A stretch of DNA of 27,082 bases, from IMG/VR virus record IMGVR_UViG_3300005918_000104, positions 1-27,082 of that record; one strand, given 5' to 3'. A program made the position numbers and the translations under genes. A model generated the notes under the pieces. The model ran no database searches. It had not been told where the DNA came from and worked only from the letters and a program-made list of their open reading frames with translations. The number at the start of each line of letters is the position of its first letter. Positions within the stretch are counted from its first letter, which is position 1. Source of the stretch: a virus. Below, one piece after another: positions 5,149 through 25,386 of the stretch.

Positions 5149-5161
5149 AAGAGGGCTTTAT

Positions 5162-6579: not shown

Positions 6580-6587
6580 CTGGTAAC

Positions 6588-6767: not shown

Positions 6768-8079
6768 CCTCGACAAATTTATTCCGAAAGAATCGCCGAT
6801 CACCGCGGCGATATACGCTCACTACAAGGAAGTAGGTGACGCGGACCCGTACCGCGGCTACCTCGGGGCGTCGATCATCGGGCACCCGTGTGAGCGGTAT
6901 CTGTGGTATCTCTTCCGGGCCTGCACTAAGGAAGATTTTCCCGGGAGAATCTACCGGCTATTCGAGACAGGTGACCTGGAAGAGATCCGAATGGTCAAGG
7001 ATCTCCGCGACATCGGCTGCACGGTCCACGACGTTGACCCGCGGACAGGCAAGCAGATCGAGATATCCGACCTTGGCGGCCACTTTAGCGGACACCTAGA
7101 CGCCGCCTTGATTGGTCTTATTGGTGCCGAGAAGACATGGCACGTAGGCGAATTTAAGACACACAATGCAAAGTCGTTCGCGAAGCTCAAGAAGGCGAAA
7201 GTCAAAGCGTCTAAGCCGGTCCACTATGCGCAAATGCAGATCTACATGCACAAGACTGGCATGAAGAGGGCATTGTATTTGGCGAAGAACAAGGACACCG
7301 ACGAAATCTACACAGAGCGTATCGAGTACGACAAAGAGTTCGCGCTTGGCCTGCTAGCCAAGGCAAAGAGGATAATCACCTCGAACTCTGCGCCCGAGAG
7401 AATCACTGAGAACATCGACTGGTGGGAGTGTAAATTCTGTTCGGCCCACTCGCTGTGCTGGGGAATCGGAGACGTAGCCCTCCCGGTCCCGGCCATCAAC
7501 TGCCGGCAGTGCTGCCACTCGACTCCGACTTGTGCCGGCCACGCCAGATGGGAGTGTGCAAAGCACGCACGCGGCCTGTCGATCGAAGACCAACAGAAAA
7601 CGTGCGACGATCATCTTGTCCTGCCGGGCCTGCTGAGCTTCGCGGAGCCGACCGACTACGGAAAGGACCCGGCAGGAAATGACTACATTGAATTCACAAA
7701 TGTCGACGGAAGTAAGTGGATGCACGGCGGAATCGGTTACGCGTCCACCGAACTTCACACTCTTCCCGTTTCAGCCCTCACTAATAAGTTCCTCGGATCA
7801 GCAAAGGGACTTTTTGGCGCTGAAGCTACAAGCCACTGCGCCGATGACATTATTTCCCGGTATCCCGAGGAGGATTCTCGAACTTGCTGGACTGGTGAGG
7901 CCAGCGGACTAGCGGAAGCGTGGAGCCTCAGGTATCACGACGACATTAGCAAGCTCGCTCCGATAGCAAGGTGCGACGGGTTCGGGTATCAGGCCGTGGA
8001 GTTCGAGTTCGGAGAAGTGGGCCGCGTGGCCATTGTGCGAAGCGACAGGAAGGCCGAGATTAGGGAGGGCGTGGAATGA
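6760..8079 (+). CDS. PD-(D/E)XK nuclease with likely Fe-S cluster
   Basis: A 439-residue Cas4/RecB-type nuclease. The catalytic core is GHLDAALIG (D114), then HVGEFKTH (E131, K133) and a QMQIYMHKTG helix (Q158). CX2CX5C (C224, C227, C233) together with C44 in GHPCERYLW gives the cysteine arrangement of 4Fe-4S nucleases such as Cas4 and AddB. Beyond residue ~240 is an extension with more Cys (C248, C251, C252, C258, C266). The start has GGGAGG at 6 nt and overlaps the preceding gene by 8 nt; the stop overlaps the helicase start (ATGA). A role in resecting DNA ends for recombination, with the helicase, ATPase and DUF669 protein, is likely. Confidence 0.85.
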   Translation: MGDLDKFIPKESPITAAIYAHYKEVGDADPYRGYLGASIIGHPCERYLWYLFRACTKEDFPGRIYRLFETGDLEEIRMVKDLRDIGCTVHDVDPRTGKQIEISDLGGHFSGHLDAALIGLIGAEKTWHVGEFKTHNAKSFAKLKKAKVKASKPVHYAQMQIYMHKTGMKRALYLAKNKDTDEIYTERIEYDKEFALGLLAKAKRIITSNSAPERITENIDWWECKFCSAHSLCWGIGDVALPVPAINCRQCCHSTPTCAGHARWECAKHARGLSIEDQQKTCDDHLVLPGLLSFAEPTDYGKDPAGNDYIEFTNVDGSKWMHGGIGYASTELHTLPVSALTNKFLGSAKGLFGAEATSHCADDIISRYPEEDSRTCWTGEASGLAEAWSLRYHDDISKLAPIARCDGFGYQAVEFEFGEVGRVAIVRSDRKAEIREGVE

Positions 8080-9698: not shown

Positions 9699-9910
9699 CA
9701 AAAGAGCAAAAACGAATCTTCTTTCAATTTGGGTTTGATAGGCTGCTTTGCCCGAAGTGGATAACCTACAACAGCGAGTGCTTTATGCGCTGCTGCAACG
9801 GAAGTGAGCATGGAACAGCTCTTGACCTTGGGGTTGTCGCGGAAACATGCCCTCGTAGACTTACCGCGATGGAGAAGGCCCTCGGCTTGTGGGGTGAGAT
9901 GAATGAATAG
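9695..9910 (+). CDS. small Cys-containing hypothetical, 71 aa
   Basis: A 71-residue protein with four Cys (C19, C29, C33, C34) plus C52, basic at the N-terminus (MTKEQKRIFFQFGFDRL) and helical at the C-terminus. It is tied to both neighbours by overlaps: ATGA with the helicase stop (9695-9698) and 8 nt with the primase start (9903-9910). It is likely made in step with the replication proteins. No family was recognised; a zinc-binding accessory role would be a guess. Confidence 0.55.
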   Translation: MTKEQKRIFFQFGFDRLLCPKWITYNSECFMRCCNGSEHGTALDLGVVAETCPRRLTAMEKALGLWGEMNE

Positions 9911-12176
9911 CTTATACGAATACGCGTTGAAGTACGCCGACCTCGGCTGGCCAGTGTTCCCGCTGGCCCCCGGGAAGAAGACTCCGATCACGAAGAGCGG
10001 AGTAAAGGACGCCACCGTAGACAAGCTGGTGTTATCGTCGTGGTGGGAGAAGTGGCCCGACGCCAATATCGGCCTGGCATGTGGCAAGGGAAGCGGCGTG
10101 TGGGTAGTCGACATTGACATCAACGAAGCGAAGGGCATCAATGGATTTACTTCGCTGCGGGAGGCCGGCTGCACTAACCAGGCAACAGTCAGTCAATATA
10201 CGCCGCGGGGCGGGCTCCACTTGCTCTTCACAGCCACAGACCCGCCGCGGAACAAGAACTCGTTTCTTCCTGGCGTTGATATCCGCGGCGAAGGGTACTA
10301 CATTGTCTTGGCGCCATCGCATCTCGACCCATACGACGGCTGCCCGGCCGGTGGTGAGTATTACTGGGCACAGGACCTTGACCCGTGGCGACCTGGGCTG
10401 TACCCGGCGCAGTATCCGGACTGTATGCGCCCGAAGGAGATAGTCAAGTTTAATGGCACCCCCCTCGTATACAACGAGACCCTGGCGGCCCCGCGGCAGG
10501 ACACGCAGCGACGAATTAGCCTCTACCTCGCGACTGTCGACCCGGCAGTCCAGGGGTTGGACGGGCACGGCAAGCTGTTTTGGGCCGCGCAGTGCATGGT
10601 GAGTGGGTGTAGGCTGTCGGACGAAGCGGCGTTCTCGATCCTTGCGAGCGAGTACAATCCGCGGTGCAGCCCGCCGTGGAATCTAGGGGACCCCTCCGAA
10701 CTAAAGGACTTCCGCCGCAAGATTACCGAGGCCCGGAAGAACCCTCCGCAGAGCAAGCGAATCGGGTGGATTATTGACGACGACACATACGGCGACGCGA
10801 ATATCACATGCACTGTTGACCTCGAATCGATAATGTCGGCCGTGCGGGAGAAGGAAGAGTCGGCCCTGCCACCAGTCGACGAAGCTGAAGAGAAGCGCGA
10901 GCTTGAATTTCTTACGAGGCCTACCGGCTTGCTCGGGGAACTGTGTTCGTGGATTAACGCAGGGGCCATCCGCCCGCAGCCGCTACTCACGCTGGCGTGC
11001 GCCCTGACGTGGCTTGGCGCCCTATACGGAAGGAAGATAGAGGACGAACGTGGAGGAAGGACGAACATTTACTGCATGGGAATTGCGCGGTCGTCTTCCG
11101 GGAAGGACCACGCGCCGAGACAGATCCGGAGACTGGCACTTGAGATGGGCGGCCTCGGCCTAATCGGCGGCAACGACATAGCATCGGACACGGCCATAGA
11201 AGAGAGGATGTCAAAGGCGCCATCAACGCTGTTTCTCTTGGACGAAATCGGACACCTACTTGCCAGTATAAATTCCGGTCAAGACAAAAACAAGATGAAC
11301 ATCGTGTCGGTTTTAATGCGCCTGTATTCGTGCGCCTCCGACGTGTATCTCGGCAAGGAATACGCGGATGTGGAGAAGCAAAGGATAATCGTCGAGCCGT
11401 GCTGCTGCCTGTACGGAACATCTACACCAGAGAGATTCACTGACGGTGTCACGCCAGGCGAAGTGAGGGACGGTTGGCTTGGCCGGTGCCTGGTGTTTAG
11501 GACCAAGGAATTCCCTCAGAAAACTGACGCAGAAAAACTACTGGTCCCGCAGCAATTGATAGATAAGTGCGGAGCGTGGTTGGATGTCGGGAGAAAAGAA
11601 ACAGATGGGTCTTCTGTGTCGCAATATCTTGTCGCGCAAGGCAACAATCGGTACTCGCAGAATGTCGATCCGCTGGAGACGATTACGGTAAAGACCACCA
11701 GCGATGCGAAGAGTGAATTCAATAAGTTGAGCGCGCGCGCAGAGTCATTGGATTCTGGCGATTCATCATCTACTATTTGGCTAAAGGCAGAAGAGAACGC
11801 CCGCAGAGTGGCACTGATACTGGCGGCCAGCGATTGCCCGGACTCCCCTGTGATAGACGAGCGCATAGCCGACTACGCATGCAGGCTAATCAGGTATCTA
11901 GTAAAAGACTTTTGCAACGCTATTATCCCGGAGATCGTAGAAAACAGGATGCAATACGAGAAGCGCAGGATTCTAGCCGCTATCGAATTCGGCAAGAAGA
12001 ATGGCGCCTCCAAGAGAGACGTTACGAGGAAATCGCAGTGGACTAATATGTCAAACAGGGACGCCATGATTAGGGATCTGCTTGAGGCCGGTGAGGTAGC
12101 CGCCGAAAAGGAAGGGAAAACAATTCGCTTCTGGGCTTCTGAATGGTTTCTGAAGCGGGAGGCGGCAAGCAAGTGA
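9903..12176 (+). CDS. primase-polymerase fused to DUF3987-type ATPase
   Basis: A 757-residue replication protein. Residues ~5-170 are a bifunctional primase/polymerase domain: DLGWPVFPLAPGKKTP, WPDANIGLACG, VWVVDIDI (metal ligands D70, D72), RGGLHLLF (H106), and GVDIRGEGYYIVLAPS. Residues ~340-560 match the DUF3987 helicase/ATPase: a P-loop ARSSSGKD (395-402, with Asp in place of the usual Ser/Thr, common in this group as I recall), LFLLDEIGHLL as Walker B (D447, E448), then GTSTPE and a DGWLGRCLVF block. The C-terminus resembles a winged helix (RDVTRKSQWTNMSNRDAMIRDLLEAGEV). It probably primes and unwinds the phage genome. No separate DNA polymerase lies in the window. Confidence 0.9.
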   Translation: MNSLYEYALKYADLGWPVFPLAPGKKTPITKSGVKDATVDKLVLSSWWEKWPDANIGLACGKGSGVWVVDIDINEAKGINGFTSLREAGCTNQATVSQYTPRGGLHLLFTATDPPRNKNSFLPGVDIRGEGYYIVLAPSHLDPYDGCPAGGEYYWAQDLDPWRPGLYPAQYPDCMRPKEIVKFNGTPLVYNETLAAPRQDTQRRISLYLATVDPAVQGLDGHGKLFWAAQCMVSGCRLSDEAAFSILASEYNPRCSPPWNLGDPSELKDFRRKITEARKNPPQSKRIGWIIDDDTYGDANITCTVDLESIMSAVREKEESALPPVDEAEEKRELEFLTRPTGLLGELCSWINAGAIRPQPLLTLACALTWLGALYGRKIEDERGGRTNIYCMGIARSSSGKDHAPRQIRRLALEMGGLGLIGGNDIASDTAIEERMSKAPSTLFLLDEIGHLLASINSGQDKNKMNIVSVLMRLYSCASDVYLGKEYADVEKQRIIVEPCCCLYGTSTPERFTDGVTPGEVRDGWLGRCLVFRTKEFPQKTDAEKLLVPQQLIDKCGAWLDVGRKETDGSSVSQYLVAQGNNRYSQNVDPLETITVKTTSDAKSEFNKLSARAESLDSGDSSSTIWLKAEENARRVALILAASDCPDSPVIDERIADYACRLIRYLVKDFCNAIIPEIVENRMQYEKRRILAAIEFGKKNGASKRDVTRKSQWTNMSNRDAMIRDLLEAGEVAAEKEGKTIRFWASEWFLKREAASK

Positions 12177-12565
12177 CGGACGTAGAAAGTGTGACTATCG
12201 TTCTTCCGTTACCGGCCAAGGTCTTGCAACCTAACTGCACGATCGGTACTTATGGCGGGCGGATGATGAAAGCAAGTGCTATCAAGCGATACCGGCGGCT
12301 GGCCATGGAGGCCTTGGAGGCAGAGTGTATCGACACTGCCCCATGGCCGAAGGTGATCGTCGAAGCGAAGTTCTTCTTCGCCACGAAGCGCAGGCGGGAC
12401 CAGGACAACGCAATGGGGTCGCTGAAAGCAGCGTATGATGGCATCGTTGATTCTGGGCTGGTCGTCGATGACGACTACGAACACATGAAGAGAACGTATG
12501 TTGATTTCGAGATTGACAAAAAACATCCAAGGGTCGAACTGACTATCGTAAGAGGGAAAGCATGA
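12173..12565 (+). CDS. rusA: RusA-like Holliday junction resolvase
   Basis: A 130-residue protein with the RusA core: N-terminal strand TIVLPLPAKVLQPN, then RRRDQDNAMGSLKAAYDGIVDSGLVVDDD. The acidic residues D76, D78 and D99-D101 plus K85 correspond to the metal-binding site of RusA. RusA dimers cut four-way junctions symmetrically, resolving recombination intermediates before packaging. I choose the GTG at 12173, which overlaps the primase stop (GTGA) and has GGGAGG upstream. An ATG at 12143 would overlap the primase gene by 34 nt. It fits the recombination enzymes upstream. Confidence 0.85.
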   Translation: MTDVESVTIVLPLPAKVLQPNCTIGTYGGRMMKASAIKRYRRLAMEALEAECIDTAPWPKVIVEAKFFFATKRRRDQDNAMGSLKAAYDGIVDSGLVVDDDYEHMKRTYVDFEIDKKHPRVELTIVRGKA

Positions 12566-13122
12566 TTACGTTAAAGCAAGAGATGGCAGTACGGTCGATC
12601 ATTGGCAACCCGTTTAGTCTCGCCACCGACAGGGATATCGCCAAGAGTACCGGCGTGTCGCACTGGCAGGTATTGTACCAGCGCCGGCTCCTGCGGGATA
12701 TCGGCGAAATTCCCAGCGACAAGGCCCTCAAAATAAGGGATCTCATACTGGCCGGGATGCCGCTTGGTGCAATTGTGACCTCCGCGAAAGCTACGCACAA
12801 AGAGGTGAAAGTGGTCCGGAGATTCTACTACCTGAAGAGACGAGAATCTGGCGGACACAGTTCGATGATGTGCCCGACATGCGGTGCGGTTATGTCAAGC
12901 AAGGCGGCCCCGGATGTCATTCCGCCTAAAAGCCAGCATCTCGCGTCGTCCGAGCTAGCGTGCATCCCCGAAAGCGAAGCGCTCGCGCTGTACCGTGTCG
13001 TGCTTGACATTCACCAACTGAACGGCGCGCACATAATAAGCAGCCCGCTGTTCTATCACCTCGCAGAGAAGGCCAAGAAAATACTCGATTCAATCAACAA
13101 GCTTCAACGGAGCCCCGGCTAA
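12562..13122 (+). CDS. helix-turn-helix protein with zinc knuckle
   Basis: A 186-residue protein. Residues 22-44 (TDRDIAKSTGVSHWQVLYQRRLL) form a classic helix-turn-helix and residues 63-88 look like a second one. A single CPTCG knuckle (C104, C107) follows, then a helical C-terminus. One Cys pair alone would need a partner for zinc, perhaps through dimerisation. GAGGG precedes the ATG, which overlaps the RusA stop by 4 nt. It could be a transcriptional switch for the late genes or a DNA-binding part of the replication machinery; the sequence does not decide between them. Confidence 0.65.
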   Translation: MITLKQEMAVRSIIGNPFSLATDRDIAKSTGVSHWQVLYQRRLLRDIGEIPSDKALKIRDLILAGMPLGAIVTSAKATHKEVKVVRRFYYLKRRESGGHSSMMCPTCGAVMSSKAAPDVIPPKSQHLASSELACIPESEALALYRVVLDIHQLNGAHIISSPLFYHLAEKAKKILDSINKLQRSPG

Positions 13123-13361
13123 TGACAAAGAAGAGAACGAGTCCTGCCGACCTTGTCAGCAAGTCCACGGCCTACTCGAAAAACAAGACGTGGTTCAGCA
13201 CCCTTAGCGCGCCGAACAAGAGATATGTCAAGTCCGTAGCCGACGCTATTGTGGCCACGCCTGCGGCGTCGGTTACCATCGTGGCCAGAAAGCTCAAGGA
13301 AGAGCTAGGGGCCGACGCATCGGAACAAACTATTGTCAGAGCACTGAAAGGCCTAATGTAA
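13122..13361 (+). CDS. small winged-helix-like protein, 79 aa
   Basis: A basic 79-residue protein (MTKKRTSPADLVSKST...). Residues 37-76 look like a small helix-turn-helix: VADAIVATPAASVTIVARKL and then ADASEQTIVRALKGLM. It is joined to both neighbours by one-base stop/start overlaps (TAATG at 13122 and at 13361). A DNA-binding partner of the phosphoesterase that follows is a reasonable inference, since small HTH units are often next to or fused with such enzymes in phages. Confidence 0.6.
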   Translation: MTKKRTSPADLVSKSTAYSKNKTWFSTLSAPNKRYVKSVADAIVATPAASVTIVARKLKEELGADASEQTIVRALKGLM

Positions 13362-14425
13362 TGTCGAGGACGAAACCAGAGAACTTAGTCGACACCGCCA
13401 CTAGCGAAACGCACATGCTGCAAGTAGCTAAGTCGAGGCGGTCCGAGACCAGTTGGCGTAAGAGGCATAAGGATGCCGTTGCTATCGCCTGCGAACTCGA
13501 AGCGCAGCTTGAAGTTGCCATTGGCTTGAATGGCGATAAGCCATTCAAGGCGGAACAGAAATTCAATCGAATGTGCAAAGGGAATTCGCCGGGCGTCGCC
13601 GTAGTGGTGCCGGCCACGGACTGGCACGTCGAAGAACGCATCTACAAGGATGCCACCAGCGGGAAGAACGAATTCACTCTGGCGATCGCCGAGAAAAGGA
13701 TCAAGAGGTTCTACTCGAAGGTCCTGGAGTTGATTGAGTGGCAGAATGCGTTGGCCCCGGTCAAAGAGATCTGGCACCCGCTTTTGGGCGACCTGCTCAC
13801 TGGGCACATCCACGAAGACCTCGTCGAAACTAATGAGTTGAGTCCAACGGAGGCATGCGTCTTCCTCCAGGACATGATCTGCGAAGGGATCGACCTGTGG
13901 CTTCGGGAAACGAAGCTCCCTATCTTCATCCCAACGTGCGTCGGGAACCACGGGCGCACCACGACGAAGAAGCGCATTAAAACGTCATGCCGCAACAGTT
14001 ACGAGTGGTTACTATACACGACGATGGCCCGTCATTACGCGAACAACAAGCGCGTTGCGTGGGATGTCGGCACCGGCTACCATAACACGCAGGAAATTGT
14101 GGGTCGCAAGGTGCGGTTCCACCACGGCGATGGCCTGCGATACCAGGGCGGCGTCGGCGGAATAACGATCCCAGTCAACAAGTCAATAGCTATGTGGGAT
14201 AAGGTGGATACATGCGACTTCGATATCTTTGGTCACTGGCACACGTTCTTGCCTCATTACCCAAAGTGGGTCTCGTGCGGCTCATTGATGGGCTACTCGG
14301 AGTATTCTGTCGAGATTAAGGCCGAGTTCCAGCACCCAACCCAGACGTTCATTGTTCTGGACCGAGAGTATGGAATGACCCAGGCGACGCCGATCTTCTT
14401 AGAGAAACCGAAACGGAGAAAGTAG
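13361..14425 (+). CDS. calcineurin-like metallophosphoesterase
   Basis: A 354-residue protein with all metal motifs of the fold: ATDWHVEE (D87, H89), LLGDLLTGHIH (G143, D144), VGNHGRT (N196, H197), FHHGDG (H255) and FGHWHTF (H292, H294). Members act on phosphodiesters, including DNA ends (SbcD/Mre11) and nucleotides. The first ~75 residues are charged and helical (RRSETSWRKRHKDAVAIACELEAQL). Its place at the end of the replication operon and the HTH protein before it suggest a DNA nuclease, but a nucleotide or protein phosphatase is possible. It is the last member of the overlapping gene series; 65 nt follow without a gene. Confidence 0.85.
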   Translation: MSRTKPENLVDTATSETHMLQVAKSRRSETSWRKRHKDAVAIACELEAQLEVAIGLNGDKPFKAEQKFNRMCKGNSPGVAVVVPATDWHVEERIYKDATSGKNEFTLAIAEKRIKRFYSKVLELIEWQNALAPVKEIWHPLLGDLLTGHIHEDLVETNELSPTEACVFLQDMICEGIDLWLRETKLPIFIPTCVGNHGRTTTKKRIKTSCRNSYEWLLYTTMARHYANNKRVAWDVGTGYHNTQEIVGRKVRFHHGDGLRYQGGVGGITIPVNKSIAMWDKVDTCDFDIFGHWHTFLPHYPKWVSCGSLMGYSEYSVEIKAEFQHPTQTFIVLDREYGMTQATPIFLEKPKRRK

Positions 14426-14490
14426 ACTCTGATCCCTACGAGCCACCTCCGTATGGAATTCCTTACTTCATAATAAAAGAAAGAACAACT

Positions 14491-15228
14491 ATGCGAACAT
14501 TCGACACGGGCGCAACCAGAGACGGCGAAGACGGTAAGCTTGACTACGAAGGATTCCTGTCTCCGCTTACCATAAAGCGGTACGCGCAATACATGCACGC
14601 GCACCGCAAGCAGTCGGACGGCAAGATGCGCGATAGCGACAACTGGCAGAAGGGTATTCCGCTAGTTGCTTACATGAAGTCTCTAATCCGACACGTCTTC
14701 GACCTGTGGTTTCTGCACAGAGGCATGAGTGTTAGCGACAACAGGGATGGCCATGGCGTATCGAAGGAAGAGACGCTTTGCGCCGTCATCTTTAATGCCT
14801 CCGGCTACCTGCACGAGTTGCTCAAGGATAAGCGCGTGGCCGAGAGCGCACGGGCGTCCGCCCCGCCTTTAGCGGAGGTGGCGACCCCCGACTACAGCGA
14901 AGTATGCCACGACTGCGCGCACTCTTCGCGTTCATGCAGCGAAAGCTCTAAACCGCTCCAGGACCCGTGCCCTGGCAAGGAGCGCAGTACCGATGGCCTA
15001 GCGGCAGACCGCCGTTTTCGCGACGAGAGTAACGGCATTATACTAGAAACCGGCGCCGACCCCGATGGAAGCCTCAGGATTGCAGGGCTAACATGGAAGC
15101 AGTTCGACGTAGCCATGGAAGCGATCCGCAGTAATGCGCATAAGCAAGGAGTTGACGAAGGGTTCGAGGCGATAGAGGCAGCCAAACGCCTACGTCAATC
15201 TAAGCTCCCCGTTAATGAATGGAATTAA
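14491..15228 (+). CDS. dATP/dGTP diphosphohydrolase family protein
   Basis: A 245-residue protein whose first ~112 residues match the phage dATP/dGTP diphosphohydrolase N-terminal domain (formerly DUF5664): MRTFDTGATRD, KLDYEGFLSP, RYAQYMHAHRKQSDG, RDSDNWQKGIPLVAYMKSL, HVFDLW, and ETLCAVIFNASGYLHELL. Enzymes of this family cleave dATP or dGTP to the monophosphate and supply dGMP in phages that make 2-aminoadenine DNA. A Cys cluster (C139, C142, C149, C160) and a helical tail follow. No purZ-like gene is seen here. The ATG is preceded only by a weak AAAGAAAG, and the 65-nt gap before it shows no clear promoter. A deoxynucleotidase gene follows. Confidence 0.8.
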   Translation: MRTFDTGATRDGEDGKLDYEGFLSPLTIKRYAQYMHAHRKQSDGKMRDSDNWQKGIPLVAYMKSLIRHVFDLWFLHRGMSVSDNRDGHGVSKEETLCAVIFNASGYLHELLKDKRVAESARASAPPLAEVATPDYSEVCHDCAHSSRSCSESSKPLQDPCPGKERSTDGLAADRRFRDESNGIILETGADPDGSLRIAGLTWKQFDVAMEAIRSNAHKQGVDEGFEAIEAAKRLRQSKLPVNEWN

Positions 15229-15304
15229 CCGGGGCACTATCTACGTTGCCGTAGGGACTGAACATCTGTATCCTAGAACACTACTCAAAATTTGGGAGCG
15301 AACA

Positions 15305-15892
15305 TTGGCAAGGATAAAACGCATCTTCCTGGACCTCGACGATGTCCTCAATGAGTTCACGATGGAGGCCCTGCGCCACGTCACTGGGCTACAAAACTTC
15401 ACCTTTAACCCCGAGTGGGGCTACGACATAGTCCGTGCCGCGAACTCCATTTCCAAAGGCATGGGTTGCGGCGCTCCATTCACTCACGCATCGTTTTGGG
15501 GTTTGCTAGAGCGCGACTTCTGGGCGAACGTCGGGCTGTCGGAGTGGTGCCACGAACTTATCGGCATCTGCACTGACGCGGTCGGCCGGAGTAACGTGTG
15601 CATCCTGTCGGCGCCGACGACCGACCCAGACTGCCTGGCCGGCAAGCTGGAGTGGGTACAGCGAGAGATGCCTACGTGGCTGCACCACCAGTTTTTATTC
15701 GGTTCGTGCAAGAGGTTTTGCGCGTATCCTGGGTCGCTTTTGATCGACGACAGCGACGCGAACATAGACGCGTTCAGAAAGGGTGGCGGCGCTGCGATAC
15801 TGTTCCCGCGGCCGTGGAACACGCAGCACGGAGCGGACGTAAGGAAGTGGATCAACTGGCAGAAGCTACTGCTTGGCGAAAACCGGCCATGA
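15305..15892 (+). CDS. HAD-family 5'(3')-deoxyribonucleotidase-like
   Basis: A HAD phosphatase: FLDLDDVLNEF (nucleophile D10, acid D12), CILSAPTTDP as motif II, and LLIDDSDANIDAFRKGGGAAILF as the motif IV aspartates. The overall length and the W..HELIG segment fit phage/NT5C-like deoxynucleotidases that remove phosphate from dNMPs. I choose the TTG at 15305 because GGGAG stands 6-7 nt upstream and the protein then starts right at the fold (MARIKRIFLDLDD). An ATG at 15215 would add 30 unrelated residues and overlap the previous gene. With the diphosphohydrolase it could turn dNTP to dNMP and nucleoside. Confidence 0.75.
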   Translation: MARIKRIFLDLDDVLNEFTMEALRHVTGLQNFTFNPEWGYDIVRAANSISKGMGCGAPFTHASFWGLLERDFWANVGLSEWCHELIGICTDAVGRSNVCILSAPTTDPDCLAGKLEWVQREMPTWLHHQFLFGSCKRFCAYPGSLLIDDSDANIDAFRKGGGAAILFPRPWNTQHGADVRKWINWQKLLLGENRP

Positions 15893-16083
15893 GGAACTGC
15901 AAGATCTGCGGCCAAATCTTGGACGAGTACACAGTCCCGGGCGGCACGGCCACGGCATGTCCGCTCTGGCTAATGCACCCGCAATTGGAGACCGGCAATG
16001 GCGACAATAAAAGAGCACCGCGCATGGAAGAGGGCGAACCCAGGCTGGCCGCTGACTGTCCACCCCTGCGGCCAGTGGGTTAA
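15889..16083 (+). CDS. possible 64-aa zinc-knuckle protein overlapping integrase
   Basis: An ATG at 15889 overlaps the deoxynucleotidase stop (ATGA), the same coupling as elsewhere in this operon. It opens a 64-residue frame beginning MRNCKICGQILDEYTVPGG with a third Cys in TACPLW. The first third looks like half of a zinc ribbon. The rest overlaps the integrase start by 86 nt and its Pro-rich end looks like shadow translation. Either this is a real short protein or only its beginning has been conserved. Confidence 0.35.
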   Translation: MRNCKICGQILDEYTVPGGTATACPLWLMHPQLETGNGDNKRAPRMEEGEPRLAADCPPLRPVG

Positions 16084-17149
16084 GACTGTCTGCGGAAAGG
16101 AAACCTACTTGGGTTCGCTAGATGATAGGGACGGAGCCCTGAGAAAATGGAACGCGATACGGACGTGTCGCGGCGTCAGGCCGAAGCTGCCTGCTGCGCC
16201 AAAGAAAGAGAAGAAGGAGAAGAAGAAGTATGAGAGGAAAGTGCGTAATGCTTTCACTGTGGCGCGCTTGTTCGAGCGGCACCGCGCGGACCTGAACAGT
16301 CGCGTCAAGGCCGGCCGCTTAGCCAAGGCCACCATCAACGACTACGTTAGGCTTCCGGGCATTGCAGCCAGCGCCGGAGTAGATAAGCTGGGCGCTGACG
16401 ACATGAACCCGACTGAGTTCGCGAAGATTATGCACGTTATCGAGTCGTCCGGGAAGGGCCTCAGAACGCAGAAAAATTTAATCACGTCGATGAAGACGGT
16501 ATTTAATTGGGGCGCAGACATGGAGTTCTGCCGCCGCGTGAACTTTGGACCAAGAATGAAGGCGCCATCCATGCTGTCAATCGAGAAGGAACGCGAAGAC
16601 AGAGGTGTAGTCAGGTTCATTGAGCGCGAGACCATCCTGGCGGCGCTGGACATCTGCCGTCCGGAAATGAAGATAGCGATCCTTCTTGGCGTTAATTGCG
16701 CATTTTATCCATCTGATACCATCAAGATAGGCAGGGGGAACTTCCACACCGAGGGACCGATAGCCTACCATGACTTCCGCCGAGTGAAGACGCTCCAGAA
16801 GCGCAAGGCCGTGCTGTGGCCTGAGACAATCTATGCAGTCGAGCGATGGTGGCATCTCTTCAAGCCAGCGAAGTTCACTCGGCGGACTCCAGCGTTGCTG
16901 GCCAGTGGGTTCGTCCAGGTACTCAAGAAGCTTGGCATCGACCCAGGCCCGGGGGTCGGGATCGGTTCGCTCAGGCACACGTATGCCTCGGTCGTGGATT
17001 CCGTACCGGACCAGGCGATGATTGACCTTACGATGGGCCATACCAGCAGGGTCCTACAGAAGCGAGTGTATGCAACCGTCAACCTCGACGAACTGGAGAG
17101 GTTGCAAGTTCTGTCTGACAAAGTCCATGACTGGCTGTATAATGACTGA
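15998..17149 (+). CDS. int: tyrosine recombinase (integrase), planctomycete type
   Basis: A 383-residue integrase. The N-terminal arm domain (WPLTVHPCGQWVKTVCGKE, YLGSLDDRDGALRKW) is followed by a Lys-rich linker (69-82), the core-binding helices (~85-180) and the catalytic domain. Seen: GIGSLRHTYAS (R326, H327), MGHTS (H348) and KRVYATVN with the likely nucleophile Y358. Missing: the first catalytic Arg, whose place holds LLGVNCAFYPSD, and the His before LRH (G323 instead). I recall this set of changes from planctomycete integrases. GGAG stands 7 nt before the ATG. It would catalyse site-specific insertion and excision. The Cys-rich gene after it overlaps by 8 nt; attP was not identified. 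Confidence 0.85.
   Translation: MATIKEHRAWKRANPGWPLTVHPCGQWVKTVCGKETYLGSLDDRDGALRKWNAIRTCRGVRPKLPAAPKKEKKEKKKYERKVRNAFTVARLFERHRADLNSRVKAGRLAKATINDYVRLPGIAASAGVDKLGADDMNPTEFAKIMHVIESSGKGLRTQKNLITSMKTVFNWGADMEFCRRVNFGPRMKAPSMLSIEKEREDRGVVRFIERETILAALDICRPEMKIAILLGVNCAFYPSDTIKIGRGNFHTEGPIAYHDFRRVKTLQKRKAVLWPETIYAVERWWHLFKPAKFTRRTPALLASGFVQVLKKLGIDPGPGVGIGSLRHTYASVVDSVPDQAMIDLTMGHTSRVLQKRVYATVNLDELERLQVLSDKVHDWLYND
17115..17143 (+). promoter_or_regulatory. near-consensus promoter inside integrase 3' end
   Basis: CTGACA (17115-17120), a 17-nt spacer and a perfect TATAAT (17138-17143) match the bacterial consensus at 11 of 12 bases. The -10 overlaps the ATG of the next gene (17142), so RNA would start near 17150, after that start codon, and run toward the - strand genes. 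It lies in coding sequence and may be chance. Confidence 0.35.
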
Positions 17150-17483
17150 ATGTACATGTATTGATGGAGACAGTGGCGAGTACAACGATTTCCACCACGT
17201 CTCAATGGAGACGGCGCGGGAAAATCGACGCAGAGTATACTGCTGCGAGTGCGGCTTGGACATCGCACCCGGCGATCAGTACGAGCTTGCCACCGGGAAG
17301 ACCCACGGCGATCCAGACATTTGGACCGCCAAGACCTGCTGTTCGTGCGCCCGCGTCAGAGACAGCGTGATGTGCGGGTTTACATACGGAATGTTATGGG
17401 CATCGATTCACGGGGCGATCTGCGGTCGCCGGGGCGATCCCGATTACTTCTGCGTCTGCCCAGACCATCTAGGTGGCAGATAG
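17142..17483 (+). CDS. Cys-rich zinc protein, 113 aa
   Basis: A 113-residue protein with about fourteen Cys in paired knuckles: CTC near the N-terminus, VYCCECGLDIAPGDQYE, KTCCSCARVRDS, then C92 and FCVCPDH. The CCECG...I.PG..YE...TC..C..R pattern is shared with small phage and mobile-element proteins of unknown function and resembles a two-zinc ribbon. The ATG at 17142 overlaps the integrase stop by 8 nt. A longer frame from 17022 is only integrase shadow. It could be an excision or regulatory partner of the integrase by position, but nothing in the sequence shows this. Confidence 0.65.
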   Translation: MTECTCIDGDSGEYNDFHHVSMETARENRRRVYCCECGLDIAPGDQYELATGKTHGDPDIWTAKTCCSCARVRDSVMCGFTYGMLWASIHGAICGRRGDPDYFCVCPDHLGGR

Positions 17484-17600: not shown

Positions 17601-17888
17601 CTACTCGCCGAAGATGGCGGCGGCCACACCGCAGGCCGTTAGAACTATCACAGACCATGCTGCCCGAAGCCCAATTAACATCACGCGCCTACTGTTCTTT
17701 AGGTTCGCGACTTCCCCCATCAACCCCGGGCTCTCGTCCTTGTTGCCGGGCACTCCGTAAACGTCAGTCCGTAGGACCTGGACAGCGCCGTCGCACGCCC
17801 CGAACCTGGCTATGTGCTCGCGCACCTCGCAATGGTAGCTGTGTAGCTCGCCCCGTAACGCGTCGATCTTCTTTTCTGCGTCCGTCAT
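17601..17888 (-). CDS. small C-terminal-anchored membrane protein
   Basis: Ninety-five residues. An N-terminal helix (AEKKIDALRGELHSYHCEVREHIARF) likely to form a coiled coil is followed by a short Gly/Pro loop and a single hydrophobic helix at ~70-93 (VMLIGLRAAWSVIVLTACGV). The coiled-coil-plus-tail-anchor build resembles XhlA-type holin helpers of phages, but that is a shape argument only. I choose the ATG at 17888, with GAGGAAG upstream and a 4-nt overlap with the SprT-like gene; a longer frame to 18062 overlaps that gene out of frame. It is the last gene of the - strand block. Confidence 0.6.
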   Translation of the reverse strand: MTDAEKKIDALRGELHSYHCEVREHIARFGACDGAVQVLRTDVYGVPGNKDESPGLMGEVANLKNSRRVMLIGLRAAWSVIVLTACGVAAAIFGE

Positions 17889-18250
17889 CGTACTTCCTCG
17901 TCGACCCCTCTCCCGAAGTTCCACTCCAGGAAGCTGCGGTACACCTTCGCGTATGATATTCCCCACTCGGCGCCATGATCGACAGCCAGCGTCTCGGCTC
18001 CGAACCATGTCATTGCGTGCGCCCATTCGTGAATTAGCGCCTCCATCCTCAGTTCGAGGCACTGCCTCTTCTCGATCTGTATCAGGAATTTCCCGCGGAT
18101 CAGTTCGCAGTTAGCTAGGTCCGCGCTCTCCCTGTAGTGGAGCTTCGGGATTTCCAGACATCGCACTGACACCGGCCGTGACGGTGGCCACTTGCGCTTC
18201 AGCCACGACAGCATCATCCGGTATCTGGTAGAGTTCTTGAGCCTAGCCAT
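17885..18250 (-). CDS. SprT-like zinc metallopeptidase
   Basis: A 121-residue protein carrying ALIHEWAHAM (H74, E75, H78: the HEXXH zinc site) and VDHGAEWG (H92 as probable third ligand), the two signatures of the SprT fold. The length is near the minimum for the domain and there is no C-terminal zinc ribbon. SprT/SPRTN enzymes cut proteins, in eukaryotes those crosslinked to DNA; the phage substrate is unknown. Because it is in the late block beside membrane proteins and cysteine peptidases, action on envelope or virion proteins is as likely as action on DNA-bound proteins. A hairpin and T-run lie just before its ribosome site. Confidence 0.75.
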   Translation of the reverse strand: MARLKNSTRYRMMLSWLKRKWPPSRPVSVRCLEIPKLHYRESADLANCELIRGKFLIQIEKRQCLELRMEALIHEWAHAMTWFGAETLAVDHGAEWGISYAKVYRSFLEWNFGRGVDEEVR

Positions 18251-18788: not shown

Positions 18789-18796
18789 GGCAAAAC

Positions 18797-18827
18797 CTCT
18801 TTGTTGTAGTTGGTGATGTTAACTTCA
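18797..18827 (-). repeat. repeated gene leader, copy A
   Basis: Read on the - strand, TGAAGTTAACATCACCAACT followed by ACAACAAAGAG leads into the start of the 136-aa membrane protein. It matches the leader of the Tad2-like gene (19078-19109) at TGAAGTT, TCACCA and ACAA-AAGAG in the same order, with small indels. Confidence 0.5.
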
Positions 18828-18842
18828 AGTGGTGCAGTACGA

Positions 18843-19067
18843 CTAGCCCGCCGCTATCAGCCAGTCTTTGGCCAAGAGATCGGTCTGGCTGGCCAGCCAC
18901 GGGACGAGATCTCCTTGCGCAGTTTTGATGTAGATGTAGGGCAGTGTCATCTTGCTGTGTTCGTCCGGGACCTGCAACGTGAGGCACTGATCCGGGCCGT
19001 TCCATCCTTTTCGCGAAACGGAATCCCCGTCCTTCAGGGCGTCGAGTGCTTCTCCGAAATTAAACAT
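18843..19067 (-). CDS. tad2: DUF2829 protein, Tad2-like anti-Thoeris
   Basis: A 74-residue protein with the full DUF2829 pattern: FNFGEALDALKDGDSVSRKGWNG, a strand LTLQVP, then MTLPYIYIKTAQGDLVPWL, ASQTDLLAKDWL. Phage SPO1 Tad2 belongs to this family; it binds and sequesters the 1''-3' glycocyclic ADPR signal made by Thoeris TIR proteins, so that infected cells are not killed. The length is slightly below the usual 80-100. No residue loss is evident in the conserved GWNG, LPYI and W-ASQ-D-LA-DW blocks. AGAGAG precedes the ATG. It lies among envelope-type late genes, which is not typical for an anti-defence gene needed early. Ligand specificity is inference. Confidence 0.85.
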   Translation of the reverse strand: MFNFGEALDALKDGDSVSRKGWNGPDQCLTLQVPDEHSKMTLPYIYIKTAQGDLVPWLASQTDLLAKDWLIAAG

Positions 19068-19077
19068 GGTGAGTTCT

Positions 19078-19109
19078 CTCTTTTGTAGCGACTGGTGACA
19101 GGAACTTCA
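19078..19109 (-). repeat. repeated gene leader, copy B
   Basis: The counterpart of copy A, upstream of the Tad2-like gene. On the - strand it reads TGAAGTTCCTGTCACCAGTC then GCTACAAAAGAG. The shared leader suggests shared control or a duplicated insertion point for small genes. Confidence 0.5.
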
Positions 19110-19111
19110 GA

Positions 19112-19845: not shown

Positions 19846-20457
19846 TTAGTGCGGCAGCGGTGCCAGCGGTGAGTACATGGGCGTAACGGCCCATCCGTAA
19901 CTGCGCCTCCACTCGGCGACTAATTCGTCTCGTGGAATCCAGACAAACCTGGACGTACTATTGTTGTCGAGTACCGCGGCCCACTTAGCATCGAGATGCA
20001 CAAGAGTTATCATGTGCGCTCCGTCATTGACGGTGATGCCACAGCCGCGCCTAGTACGACATGCCCATTCAAGAAATCTTACGTCTCCCTTCGTTGTGTA
20101 CGCGTAGCGTATACCCCTGCTGTCCAGCTTCACGGCTACCGATCTTGCGAACTCTCCGCCGTGGAAGTTCCTTCGCCAATCCTTGGCCAGCCTCTCCTTG
20201 CCCTGCCACCTTAGCAATGTGATTAGCGACGCGTGAACGCACGACCCCTCACTGGAGTAGTTCGACTCACGCATCGCAATCGGTATATTTACCTCTGGTC
20301 GCTCGACGATCTTCGTGCCGTAGTCACGCCTCTCGGCGCAGCCGACCATAAAAATGAATGAGAGCACGCAAAATAGCAAGACAAAGAAGCCAAGCGAATG
20401 GAGATTGGTTTCCACACTGCCTCGCCCGTCGTAGTATTCGCGTCTATTCCATCTCAT
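19846..20457 (-). CDS. C39-like papain-fold peptidase, likely lipoprotein
   Basis: A 203-residue protein. Residues 22-40 (LGFFVLLFCVLSFIFMVGC) form a signal with a lipobox-like MVGC, so C40 may be lipidated. The catalytic domain has GSCVHASLITLLRWQG (nucleophile C73), NDGAHMITLVHLD (H148) and AVLDNNS (D164 or N165), the order of C39-type and related papain-fold peptidases. The start at 20457 has GGAGA and overlaps the preceding stop by one base (TGATG); a longer frame to 20529 has no support. It may cleave peptidoglycan crosslinks or envelope proteins at lysis or entry. Confidence 0.75.
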   Translation of the reverse strand: MRWNRREYYDGRGSVETNLHSLGFFVLLFCVLSFIFMVGCAERRDYGTKIVERPEVNIPIAMRESNYSSEGSCVHASLITLLRWQGKERLAKDWRRNFHGGEFARSVAVKLDSRGIRYAYTTKGDVRFLEWACRTRRGCGITVNDGAHMITLVHLDAKWAAVLDNNSTSRFVWIPRDELVAEWRRSYGWAVTPMYSPLAPLPH

Positions 20458-21011
20458 CACTTTAATCTCCTGGGTGGACACACAATCCCGAGTCTCCGCA
20501 GGGTGCGCATAAGATGGTTGGGATTCCATCGAGACGCGTTCGCAGTATTAAACACTCCGACATGCGACAACTGCTCGGCAACGAACTCGGAACAAAAGAA
20601 GGTTGCCAGATCCTCACCCCGGAGAGCACCATAACAGGCGGCCCAAAGCTTTCCTCCAGCGCGCAGCGCCCCGGCGGCGTCATAGTCTCTGCCAAGGCTG
20701 TTCTTAGTGCTCTCTTCGAGTCTACCATACTCGTGTCCGTATAATGGTCGGTGTAGTTTGTAAAGCCAGGCTCTTCCGTCGTACTTTTCGACGCCTTGGT
20801 AGGGGGATTGATGTCGTACTCCGAATCCAGAGGCGCTGTCAAACAGCCTGAGGTTACAGTCGCTTTCGTGGTAGGAGAAGATTCCAACATGCGACAAACT
20901 CCACCGCGGGATACCGAACGAAAGCAGGTTCACTGCATCGCTCACCAGCGAGCCACCGGAAAACCCAATGACATCGCCGGGCTCAATTGATTGCAGGACT
21001 TTGAGATCCAT
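20457..21011 (-). CDS. YiiX/NlpC-type permuted papain-fold hydrolase
   Basis: A 184-residue protein. The order is a GDVIGFSGGS loop, SLSHVGIF (H41), a YDAAGALRAGG segment and TFFCSEFVAEQL (C140), the His-before-Cys order of permuted NlpC/P60 enzymes such as YiiX. Such enzymes cleave amide bonds in peptidoglycan, proteins or lipid-linked peptides. No signal peptide is seen, so it would need a holin, act in the cytoplasm or ride in the virion. AAGGGA precedes the ATG, and a promoter-like element lies at 21032. It is the first gene of the - strand block after the giant gene and is coupled to the lipoprotein peptidase. Confidence 0.8.
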   Translation of the reverse strand: MDLKVLQSIEPGDVIGFSGGSLVSDAVNLLSFGIPRWSLSHVGIFSYHESDCNLRLFDSASGFGVRHQSPYQGVEKYDGRAWLYKLHRPLYGHEYGRLEESTKNSLGRDYDAAGALRAGGKLWAACYGALRGEDLATFFCSEFVAEQLSHVGVFNTANASRWNPNHLMRTLRRLGIVCPPRRLK

Positions 21012-21045: not shown

Positions 21046-24000
21046 CTAAAAACCATTCTTCTTTTCCTTCGCGGCCTCCACCCACCAGAGGGACATGCGG
21101 CTCTGTAGCTTGGCCGAAAACTCCTTAGCTACCCGGAACCGCTCCCGCTGGCCAGTGTTGAGGTACTCGTGCCCGAACTTCCAGCGGTCATACTCATTCA
21201 AGCTATCGGAGACCGGGTCAGGACCGCCCTGGTGCTTCCAGAACTTTTCTCCGCCCTTGTATGCACCATGCTTTTCGAGGAACTTTGTGCGCCAATCGAA
21301 GAACGCCTCCTTGTCGTCATTGATTGCTGCGTCACGCCCTGGCTTGTACTCTGAGATGTATCCGACGCCTGGTTTAGCCTTGCCCTCCTGCTTGAGGAAG
21401 TCATCGCGTAGTGAATACATCTCACTCAACGCGGCGGCCCCGGGGTCGACAACACCAACTGCGAATCTCTTCAGGTAGTGGTTACGCCACCGCTGACCAT
21501 TGCCCGTTACCGCTCCCTTGAGTTGCCTCAGTTCGTCGCTCAATCCGTAGATGTTAGCTGCCGCTTCGCCGCGATCAACCTGGCGCGGATTGAACGGGTC
21601 GGGGAAGTAGGACTTGCCGCCAACGACCTCGGCGACGGCCTTGTAATCTGGCCTAAGCAACGAGATGAACTTCTCCAGCGGAGCCGTAAGTACCTCTTTG
21701 CCTATGTCACTCCAGTCTATCTTTCCGTCGATAGCACGCGGCAGCAAGGATGCGGCCTCGTTGACTCCGAACCACGACAGAAGTTCCCCGAACGACCCGA
21801 CGTTCCTGAAGACGTTGAGTGTTCCGTCAGAGTTCGGGCCGATCAGTATATGCGACCCGTTCCTGTCGTAGTCGCCCAGCTTCTCTTCGTCATCCTCGCC
21901 CCAGATCATCGGGTACATGAGGTTGTTCCATACCCATAGCGCGCCATTCATTTGGGCAATCCTGAAGACCGCTATCTTCGCCAAGACTGCACCCGTCGCC
22001 GTCCTACCCTTGCCGGACTTGAATGCGTTGTGTAGGATCTTCGGGTATCTCGTGGCGTTGATCTCGCAGAACGACCAGAAGTACAGTAGGTGATCGCGCA
22101 GCCAGTTACCCATCATCGACAGGTTGCTGTAGTCGCCAAGCAAGTTGCGCGCCATGTGGGCGGCGGCGGCCTCGTCCCCTAGTTCTTCTTGAATAATCTT
22201 GACGGTCGACTCCATCGCCGCCCCGTAATGCGAAAGCTTTCCAGACTTCAGTTGTTCGAGATACCGGAGGTACGCAGTGTACCGCAGTATGTTTTCTCTG
22301 CCTTCGGTTGCTCCGCGTGCAACGCGAGTGTAAGTCTTGAGCGGATTCTTGCTGAGATATTTTCCGAAGCCTGGCTTCGTGATATCTATTGCCCCAACAT
22401 CCCCCATCTCGGCTGCTATCTGACCGGAGCCTATCACTCCGTAGCGCTCTGCGTTAAGAGAGTCCTTCGACTGCGGCTTCGACAAGTTTTGGAGATCCAG
22501 CACTTCCTTGAGCGCCCTGCCCATGTGCTTTACCATCCCGAAGTCGGTAGCAAGAACTGGGTCCAGGTCGCCGACGAAGTTGCGAAGCTGGTGGCCAGTG
22601 AAGTTCTTCGGGCCAATGAGCATGAACGCCTTCCAGGAATTCCGCATGGCCTTCGACACTTCTTCTACGAAATCAGGCTCCTTGATTTGCCCGTCGTGCT
22701 TGATCTGATTCACTATCTCAGTCGGCATCACAAGGATCTCTGCGCCAGTGCCGCCGACAGCCAGGTCGACCTCTTCGTCGGTCATGTTCAGGTCCTCTTG
22801 GACAGCCTGGCTGTACTGCTCCTGAATCGACGACGTGAGGCCGGCCTTCATGTTGCCGAAAAGTTTCCGTCTGCTCGTTACGGTGTGCCCGTTCTCCCTT
22901 GCGACCGAACCGAGTGATCGCTCTTCGCTCTCGGCCTGCTTTGTGAACTCGTCCGTCTTGCTATACTTCTCAAGCGCGTTGTTGTAATCCTTCTTGATAA
23001 GCTTCTCGTATGCGCTGGCCATCCACGCTAGCTCTGGCGCTATGTAGCTCGTGTTGTAATCGAACTCTGCGTCCAGGCTGATAGGCCCTGTGATTCTTTT
23101 CCGCATCCAACCGGCGGCGCCCGTCTGCCGCTCCTGGCCGATGCGCATGGCGTTACGATACAGCAGAACTTCCTGGTGGACATACGACTCGACATCGTCA
23201 AGCATCGCTGGGTTCATACCAAGCTCCTCAACAAGCCGCAGCACGAGATCACCAACCATCTTGCCGCGCCGGTCCAGCGCTGCCTTCACCTTCGGAGTAG
23301 CCTCAACCAAAGTGCGAAGCTGCCGCTCGTACTTAGCCGCGGCCTCTCGCGACTTCACGCGATGCCGAAGCGGCTCCGGTTTGGAGACGAGCCCAATTCG
23401 CTCGCCAGTCTTCTTGTCGACTCCCTCGCCGACCATATCCAGCGAACGAATCTGATTCTTTGTGACAAGATATCTTTCAAGCAAGTCGACCTGGGTTGGC
23501 CCCAGTTCCTCGTTCTCCTTTGCGATAACAGAGGACACCTGCCGAGCCGCCCACGAGCGAGCCGCAATAGGCGCTTCACGCAGCAACCTAAAAGACTCCT
23601 GGGCAGACTTCCACTTCGCACCGAAATTCGGGATGTACTTGTTTGCACGAACCGTGGCCTGACCAAGAAGGCTCAACCTATTGCTTATCCTCTTCCAGAA
23701 CTTATCGCCCTTCTCGCTGACATTCGACTTGACGTAGGCGGCCTCGTGCTCTGGGTCGGGCGACTTCATCGCCTCGACGGCCCGCTCGTGCTCCATGCCG
23801 GCCACGGTATCATCGACCACCCTACCGATCGGGACGGCGCCAGATTCCCCGGCCAGAAGGTCGGCGATACCCTGTTGCGTTGTCTTGTCGTCGACCACCG
23901 CGGGCTCTACGGCCGCCTCGGTTTTCGCCATCGATGGCGGTGGTTTCTGCTTTTCGTCGGCCTTTCGTGCTTGTTTTGCAGCAGCAACCTTCTCAACTCT

Positions 24001-25386
24001 CGCATCGATGGCGGCAGTCTCGTCGGGAATATCGGCAATGCCTTCAACAAGCTCAGCCGGCTGATCCGGGATCGCGACCTCTTCTCCTGCGCTAACGTCC
24101 TTCTCGACGGACACCTGGATCTCGTCGATCGCGCGGTACGAATCAGCGAGCGCCTTGGTGTACTCCAACCTCTGCTTGGCATGCACACCCTCTTCAGCGG
24201 GGAGTCCTAGCTCCTTCCACTTCTTCCTGGACGGCGCCCTGTTCTTGTCTGCGAACTCAATGATCTCGGCGCGCGCTTTGGCGGCCTGCACGTCCCCAGC
24301 GATGCGTGCTCCGCCCCCAAGCATGGTGATGGGAAGCAACGGAAGGGCTGACTCGCGAGCGCCCGCAAGAGCCTCCCGTGGGACCTCAGCCAGACTGCGC
24401 CCGCTGGTCTGCCCAGAGACTACGCCGCCGGCCAGACTACCGACAGCTTCGCCGCCTGCCTGAACAAACTCTTCCCCGACCTCGCCCAGGTACTCGGCCG
24501 CGGCACTGCCGGCCGTGCCGGCGATCTTCTTTTTGAGACCCTTGGCGCCAAGCTTAGCGGCAGCACTACCGATAACTTCTTTCCCAACGCCGCCGAGACC
24601 GCTTCGTCCCACGCCGGGAACTGGAACGGCCGCCTCGACTGCGCCGCCGAACGCCGACGTTAGACTCGAAATGGTGTTGGCCGCGGTAGGGTCGACTCCC
24701 TCCGATATGAGCCTCCCGCGCGTCGCCGGGAACATTTGCAGGCCGGCTTGGGTGGCGAGTCCCGCCCCACCACCGATGCTGTACGCAGCTTTGCCGACAA
24801 GAATCTGCGGGGCAAGCTTCGCGCCGCCGATCAACGTCTTGAACGCAATGTTGTCTTCTTTTGTTTTCTTCGGGTCGCCGTACTGGTACGCGGCCTCCAT
24901 GAGATCGCGGTACTTCATCTCTCCGGCGTCGGTGTCGCTACCGCCCAGCACTCTCCCTAGCCCCTTGTGCGCCTCTGCTATCTCGTTGGCGCCTTCCAAG
25001 AACGCCTCGGGGATCTCCATCAACTTGTCTCCCCACCGCTGCAGGAAGTTGCTGTTGTTCCAGTCCTCGCGCTTCTTCTTGCCGAGCACCTGCGAGGCCT
25101 GCATCACCTTGCTCATAATCCAGGCGCGATCCTCGGTATCCTTGACCTCGCTGGCCACCTGGCGCGCCTTCTCCTTGCGCGACGGGCTGTATGGATTCAC
25201 GAGAGGCATAACGTACTTACGCATGTACCCCTTGCGCTTCTCTTCCTCATACGCAATATCGCGCTTGTCCTCGGAGATCCGCTGAAGGACGGACTTAGCG
25301 CCACGATCTCTCTCTGCTGCATCGTGCCTAGAGGCGAACAACTGCGCCTTTGCGTATGGAGACAGCGCCGGATCATTTTCCGCCAT
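21046..25386 (-). CDS. giant internal virion/ejection-type protein, 1446 aa
   Basis: A single frame of 1446 residues. Residues ~1-170 are charged and helical. Residues ~185-350 are Gly/Ala-rich with several near-hydrophobic segments (LIGGAKLAPQILVGKAAYSI, GSAAAEYLGEVGEEFVQAGG), as in membrane-inserting ejection proteins. Residues ~400-560 are acidic and low in complexity. The C-terminal ~700 residues contain KAFMLIGPKNFTGHQLRNFVGD and EGRENILRYTAYLRYLEQL, which resemble domains of large phage polyvalent or internal proteins. GGAG precedes the ATG, and the start overlaps the preceding gene by 14 nt. A role in DNA ejection (T7 gp15/gp16-like) is inferred from size, composition and its place among likely structural genes; no enzymatic motif was seen. 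Confidence 0.6.
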   Translation of the reverse strand: MAENDPALSPYAKAQLFASRHDAAERDRGAKSVLQRISEDKRDIAYEEEKRKGYMRKYVMPLVNPYSPSRKEKARQVASEVKDTEDRAWIMSKVMQASQVLGKKKREDWNNSNFLQRWGDKLMEIPEAFLEGANEIAEAHKGLGRVLGGSDTDAGEMKYRDLMEAAYQYGDPKKTKEDNIAFKTLIGGAKLAPQILVGKAAYSIGGGAGLATQAGLQMFPATRGRLISEGVDPTAANTISSLTSAFGGAVEAAVPVPGVGRSGLGGVGKEVIGSAAAKLGAKGLKKKIAGTAGSAAAEYLGEVGEEFVQAGGEAVGSLAGGVVSGQTSGRSLAEVPREALAGARESALPLLPITMLGGGARIAGDVQAAKARAEIIEFADKNRAPSRKKWKELGLPAEEGVHAKQRLEYTKALADSYRAIDEIQVSVEKDVSAGEEVAIPDQPAELVEGIADIPDETAAIDARVEKVAAAKQARKADEKQKPPPSMAKTEAAVEPAVVDDKTTQQGIADLLAGESGAVPIGRVVDDTVAGMEHERAVEAMKSPDPEHEAAYVKSNVSEKGDKFWKRISNRLSLLGQATVRANKYIPNFGAKWKSAQESFRLLREAPIAARSWAARQVSSVIAKENEELGPTQVDLLERYLVTKNQIRSLDMVGEGVDKKTGERIGLVSKPEPLRHRVKSREAAAKYERQLRTLVEATPKVKAALDRRGKMVGDLVLRLVEELGMNPAMLDDVESYVHQEVLLYRNAMRIGQERQTGAAGWMRKRITGPISLDAEFDYNTSYIAPELAWMASAYEKLIKKDYNNALEKYSKTDEFTKQAESEERSLGSVARENGHTVTSRRKLFGNMKAGLTSSIQEQYSQAVQEDLNMTDEEVDLAVGGTGAEILVMPTEIVNQIKHDGQIKEPDFVEEVSKAMRNSWKAFMLIGPKNFTGHQLRNFVGDLDPVLATDFGMVKHMGRALKEVLDLQNLSKPQSKDSLNAERYGVIGSGQIAAEMGDVGAIDITKPGFGKYLSKNPLKTYTRVARGATEGRENILRYTAYLRYLEQLKSGKLSHYGAAMESTVKIIQEELGDEAAAAHMARNLLGDYSNLSMMGNWLRDHLLYFWSFCEINATRYPKILHNAFKSGKGRTATGAVLAKIAVFRIAQMNGALWVWNNLMYPMIWGEDDEEKLGDYDRNGSHILIGPNSDGTLNVFRNVGSFGELLSWFGVNEAASLLPRAIDGKIDWSDIGKEVLTAPLEKFISLLRPDYKAVAEVVGGKSYFPDPFNPRQVDRGEAAANIYGLSDELRQLKGAVTGNGQRWRNHYLKRFAVGVVDPGAAALSEMYSLRDDFLKQEGKAKPGVGYISEYKPGRDAAINDDKEAFFDWRTKFLEKHGAYKGGEKFWKHQGGPDPVSDSLNEYDRWKFGHEYLNTGQRERFRVAKEFSAKLQSRMSLWWVEAAKEKKNGF

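Follow-up and report, generated by a model that had tools for sequence, protein, structure and literature searches.

Whether a 74-residue protein bearing Tad2-like motifs, encoded between membrane-protein genes in a virus record of 27,082 nt (IMGVR_UViG_3300005918_000104; the whole stretch is hereafter called the window), acts as a sponge for an immune signal, and for which one, is the question raised by this locus. The tad2 ORF is read on the minus strand from the ATG at 19067 to the stop codon at 18843-18845, and its 74 codons are translated as MFNFGEALDALKDGDSVSRKGWNGPDQCLTLQVPDEHSKMTLPYIYIKTAQGDLVPWLASQTDLLAKDWLIAAG. The initial annotation gave the right coordinates and length and omitted the strand; the DUF2829 block pattern that it claimed was found in full, comprising FGEAL, RKGWNG, LPYIYIKTAQG and VPWLASQTDLLAKDW. 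The HMM search that it proposed returned a significant match to Pfam PF11195 (Tad2-like, formerly DUF2829; E 4.3e-25, 88.5 bits against a cut-off of 25) spanning residues 3-71 and profile positions 2-72 of 73, nearly the whole profile, and tad2 alone matched PF11195 in the 27-kb record. A phmmer search against the PDB retrieved seven distinct Tad2/AcrIIA7 chain sequences (E 1.5e-14 to 4.7e-11), including SptTad2, which was the closest (E 1.5e-14), HgmTad2/AcrIIA7, ModTad2 and SPO1 Tad2. Judged by the Pfam and phmmer E-values, the quoted motifs are far beyond chance. The GC content of the tad2 segment (0.54-0.58) was not odd.

The AlphaFold2 model of the monomer, built from an alignment of 83 sequences, reached a mean pLDDT of 92.1 and a pTM of 0.80; in it, a helix and four strands are followed by a short helix and a final strand (Table 1). 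In a Foldseek search of the PDB with this model, all 24 of the 24 matches at E<=0.001 were Tad2/AcrIIA7 proteins, each of them also reaching E<=1e-5, the best being 8smf, SPO1 Tad2 with 1''-3' gcADPR (TM 0.84-0.86), and the first non-Tad2 match appeared at E 0.21. The Tad2 fold, with which the initial annotation had suggested a comparison, was thus recovered, and the pocket was examined element by element rather than per atom. The 74-residue protein is a further member of the known Tad2 family, and both family and fold are firmly supported.

Table 1. Coordinates of tad2, its predicted pocket segments and the adjoining minus-strand genes in the window.
Feature	Position	Strand	Remarks
tad2, predicted order of elements	18843..19067	-	H4-12, E17-19, E28-32, E44-48, E54-56, H61-65, E69-71 (model)
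tad2 codons 19-24, R-K-G-W-N-G	18996..19013	-	Connects strands 1 and 2 as a loop; part of the pocket in SPO1 Tad2
tad2 codons 57-69 (W57..W69)	18861..18899	-	Loop joining strand 4 to helix 3, plus helix 3; both part of the pocket in SPO1 Tad2
Large protein, 1446 aa, probable virion protein	21046..25386	-	L106 counterpart carries LPD38
184-aa protein	20457..21011	-	L106 relative weakly like permuted papain-like amidases (PF05708, E 0.0056, below cut-off)
Putative lipoprotein, 203 aa	19846..20457	-	Lipobox-like LSFIFMVGC; relative in L106
Gene upstream of tad2, 239 aa	19112..19831	-	Two membrane segments, one per end; L106 and L107 have relatives
tad2 leader, 44 nt	19068..19111	-	Purine-rich, ribosome-site-like AAAAGAGAG
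Gap from tad2 to next gene, 54 nt	18789..18842	-	Next gene's leader AAAGAGGTTTTGCC resembles that of the L106 relative
Gene downstream of tad2, 136 aa	18378..18788	-	N-terminal membrane segment; 71% (L106) and about 54% (L107) identity
121-aa protein	17885..18250	-	HEWAH motif; weak SprT-like match (E 0.009, below cut-off)
95-aa protein, possible holin	17601..17888	-	C-terminal membrane segment; 52% identical to L106 gene

In Tad2, the gcADPR pocket is formed by loop β1-β2, loop β3-β4 and strand β4 of one protomer together with loop β1-β2, loop β4-α3 and helix α3 of another, and cyclic dinucleotides are held by a β2-β5 insertion (review PMC12043709). Tad2 sponges of the anti-Thoeris type are homotetramers whose pockets lie where protomers from different dimers meet. 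Nine residues (R19, W22, N23, G24, W57, S60, D63, D68 and W69) were invariant in all 83 aligned relatives and fall in or beside loop β1-β2, loop β4-α3 and helix α3, pocket elements according to the same review; all nine also occur in SPO1 Tad2 and are common to compact and long forms. SPO1 Tad2 (gp34.65; PDB 8sme, 8smf, 8smg) further shares the RxGWNG and W..SQTD.LA.DW blocks, but it has 89 residues, an insertion separating its strands 2 and 3. HgmTad2/AcrIIA7 and SptTad2 (PDB 8kbi-8kbk, 8wjd) likewise share the family, the fold and the conserved blocks, whereas they have 101-104 residues and carry a long, cyclic-dinucleotide-binding β2-β5 insertion. An insertion of this type is missing here: the two conserved Trp residues are separated by 34 residues versus about 59-65 in HgmTad2/SptTad2 and 42-67 in the long forms from IMG/VR, a set of matches that also held a few compact rows. 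Considering that the pocket elements are kept, that the insertion is missing and that SPO1 Tad2 does not bind 3'3'-cGAMP (PMC11722364), we infer an ADPR-type signal pocket that would not bind dinucleotides.

A dual sponge that also takes up CBASS cyclic dinucleotides, as HgmTad2/AcrIIA7 and SptTad2 do, is accordingly a very improbable reading, even though the protein belongs to the same family and its closest PDB sequence by phmmer, SptTad2, is a cGG binder; besides the missing insertion, the failure of SPO1 Tad2 to bind 3'3'-cGAMP concerns a protein whose insertion is longer than the segment found here, and relatives often have a separate Acb2-like gene next door. Still less credit is given to an anti-CRISPR function, which is suggested by the name AcrIIA7 of some PF11195 members and by the deposition of HgmTad2 as an inhibitor of type II CRISPR-Cas; the likeness to that protein is at family level only, crystals of HgmTad2 itself were obtained with cADPR and cGG, in support of sponge activity being a general family property, and no CRISPR context was seen.

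PF11195 proteins with different targets are documented, since ModTad2 binds His-ADPR and SPO1 Tad2 binds gcADPR (PMC13299392), and the ligand is therefore not readable from the family name. ModTad2, from a Myroides odoratus prophage (PDB 8v3e, 9eib), resembles the 74-residue protein in family and fold (TM 0.80-0.85), but its signal belongs to type II Thoeris, it has an insertion, and of SQTD it keeps the S and the D, not the Q. In the compact clade, the segment between strands 2 and 3 reads PDxxSKMTLPYI, is strongly conserved and is unlike that of SPO1 Tad2; because this segment is part of the pocket surroundings there, the ligand may differ from that of SPO1 Tad2.

At least 249 relatives of the protein were found in IMG/VR, the best 80 of which showed up to 76% identity, and 366 annotated phage records contained relatives, with hosts ranging from Acinetobacter to Mycobacterium; among about 85,000 prokaryote genomes, only 16 relatives were detected. 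A tree was built on 68 core columns, and with so few columns and many open forks it serves as a guide only; it placed all 75 compact rows inside one starred set of 80 rows, the other five being longer, and put SPO1 Tad2, ModTad2, HgmTad2 and SptTad2 outside the compact group. On this guide, the compact forms would be essentially one lineage. No solved structure was found in the compact clade, outside which lie all four characterised Tad2 proteins of the tree, and we know of no tested member, although Hadary 2025, a sponge-diversity preprint that PMC13232231 cites, may have tested some. The compact clade is a widespread branch of a known anti-defence family.

These observations bear on a sub-case of the sponge reading, namely that the same fold captures a signal other than gcADPR, for example His-ADPR, as in type II Thoeris, or a different TIR product. 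The single lineage, the invariant spacing with the conserved PDxxSKMTLPYI in place of a variable insertion, and the documented diversity of targets within PF11195 speak for it, while gcADPR-bound SPO1 Tad2 matched best by structure and also has the residues that stay invariant in both compact and long forms. We regard this sub-case as possible and give it somewhat less than even weight.

Additional evidence on function came from the neighbourhoods of relatives. Gene calling around 64 distinct loci found a same-strand neighbour upstream in 60/63 and downstream in 58/63 cases, and the neighbours were very mixed, including terminase large subunit, portal, ribonucleotide reductase, thymidylate synthase and nuclease genes. 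The commonest small neighbours of compact tad2 encode Acb2/Tad1-hairpin proteins (PF24729), which are also phage sponges for immune nucleotides but have an unrelated helical fold. PF24729 matched over the cut-off in 18 of 67 whole relative records; by distances derived by hand from the coordinates, it lay within about 0.3 kb of tad2 in 13 of them, two of which (L066 and L072) are close relatives, and at about 0.7 kb in one more, so that such genes adjoin compact tad2 in at least 14/67 relatives. Random placement would put about 1.1 near tad2 (P(>=13) 2e-14). In a mostly long-form set, PF24729 was present in 3/50 records, all within about 0.3 kb, and the adjacency is thus somewhat commoner with compact forms (14/67 versus 3/50, Fisher P 0.03). 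The window itself contains no PF24729 match. Considering that Acb2-like genes recurrently adjoin tad2 in relatives, an anti-defence role gains independent support.

Some relatives lie among ribonucleotide reductase and thymidylate synthase genes, which raises the alternative that the protein is no immune sponge and has a housekeeping role, binding nucleotides in the metabolism of the phage. Such operons surround the copies of Acinetobacter phage XC38 and of three further records (neighbours in L012, L013 and L054), and in the archaeal virus vir335 (L089:719-1561, BK063680.1; host Methanomassiliicoccales) an N-terminal Tad2 part is fused to a DUF3310-like part (E 0.0007, below cut-off) in a protein annotated as a nucleotide kinase. 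This alternative is nevertheless unlikely, as the neighbours are otherwise very mixed, Acb2-like sponge genes recur beside tad2, all solved proteins with a strong sequence or fold match inhibit defence, and tad2 is accessory in the window rather than conserved with its neighbours, as set out below. In Aeromonas phage Ahp1 (L088, MT161459.1 20621-30830), compact tad2 stands directly upstream of a nicotinamide phosphoribosyltransferase gene, and the two possibly form an NAD-centred counter-defence pair.

In the window, the minus-strand block running from 27060 to 17604 faces the plus-strand genes at 384-17480, which encode Sak4-like, single-strand-binding, Cas4-type exonuclease, helicase, primase, RusA and integrase proteins. 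The block encodes, in order, proteins of 136, 423, 1446, 184, 203 and 239 aa, Tad2, and proteins of 136, 121 and 95 aa. The initial annotation had described a late/envelope gene block; strong membrane segments or a lipobox-like end were found in the 203-, 239-, 136- and 95-aa proteins and none in Tad2, whereas no membrane-type same-strand neighbour reached the cut-off in a Pfam search. The word envelope is thus based on hydropathy, and the word late on the large LPD38-type protein upstream in L106, a related 52-kb contig. LPD38 is a domain of phage polyvalent proteins; taken with the membrane genes, its presence in the L106 counterpart suggests that the block is expressed late. No sigma-70-like promoter was found near tad2 on the minus strand.

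L106 keeps the same order, with homologues of the 184-, 203-, 239- and 136-aa genes followed by the 95-aa gene, but just 40 nt and no tad2 separate the 239- and 136-aa homologues, and PF11195 was absent from the whole L106 record. In a second relative, L107, tad2 is likewise missing between the same homologues. Since L106 and L107 have the block without it, tad2 is considered an accessory gene at one point of a conserved block; on these sequences, its gain in the window and its loss in L106 and L107 are not strictly distinguishable. The likeness of the two leaders (score 12; 5/2000 shuffles scored as high) was considered as a trace of insertion through direct repeats flanking tad2; this reading was dropped because a further leader in the window reached a score of 11 and a search for direct repeats was negative.

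The initial annotation had also called the position of tad2 unusual, a remark that the relatives in this clade do not bear out. The SPO1 gene does lie in a cluster of small genes and not in a late block, but clade copies often adjoin terminase, portal or lysis genes, as near the terminase in Mycobacterium phage Curiosium and after a lysis gene in CBW1004C-Prop1, and placement among late genes is common in the compact clade. Even a fusion occurs, in which a GH25 lysozyme (PF01183, E 6e-29) carries a C-terminal compact Tad2 (PF11195, E 2.5e-23; L038:5383-6213, also L039 and L047), and this protein may be a lysin carrying a signal sponge. Thoeris in Staphylococcus and Streptococcus is triggered by the major capsid protein (PMC12578639); a late sponge need not be odd, because the capsid-triggered signal and the late-made sponge would coincide.

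The explanation that we consider likely is a compact Tad2-type sponge for an ADPR-derived immune signal, encoded by an accessory gene in a late-type membrane-gene operon, and the 74-residue protein is a probable ADPR-signal sponge. The protein, small, soluble and presumably tetrameric like SPO1 Tad2, would bind an ADP-ribose-derived signal inside infected cells, either gcADPR or an ADPR conjugate related to it, and the capture would keep a TIR-based (Thoeris-type) defence from firing its effector, presumably to the benefit of the virus in its real host. As tad2 sits in a late-type membrane-gene operon, the protein is probably made late, and such timing would fit defences triggered by a capsid protein.

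A wider picture, tentative and on balance doubtful, is that the compact clade forms a distinct, very widespread Tad2 subtype that lost dinucleotide binding and answers one TIR signal, that its pairing with an Acb2-like partner makes a two-gene cassette covering CBASS signals as well, and that late-operon and lysozyme-fused copies are timed to capsid-triggered defence. The ligand of the clade would reveal which TIR-based defences these phages face. The compact form is among the smallest natural Tad2 pockets and offers a clean test of whether the insertion alone confers cyclic-dinucleotide binding, and the tad2-acb2 neighbourhood provides a simple rule for finding more anti-defence genes.

Regarding the virus itself, searches with the 1446- and 184-aa proteins found no phage relatives, and the DNA-metabolism genes matched many unrelated phages, all below 60% identity, so that no host was assigned. 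The block varies at a further point: after the 136-aa membrane gene, the window has the SprT-like HEWAH protein (17885-18250) and L106 an unrelated 86-aa protein (L106:6476-6736), and this is the block's second variable slot. In L107, the gene after the 136-aa homologue codes for a thioredoxin-type lipoprotein (PF00085, E 1e-11; L107:1239-1607), which also falls at a varying point of the block. In the window, the integrase-like gene (15998-17149) and the late block are on opposite strands, but in L106 (L106:7492-8640) they share one; the two copies are 48% identical, and the gene seems to have been inverted or moved between the two.
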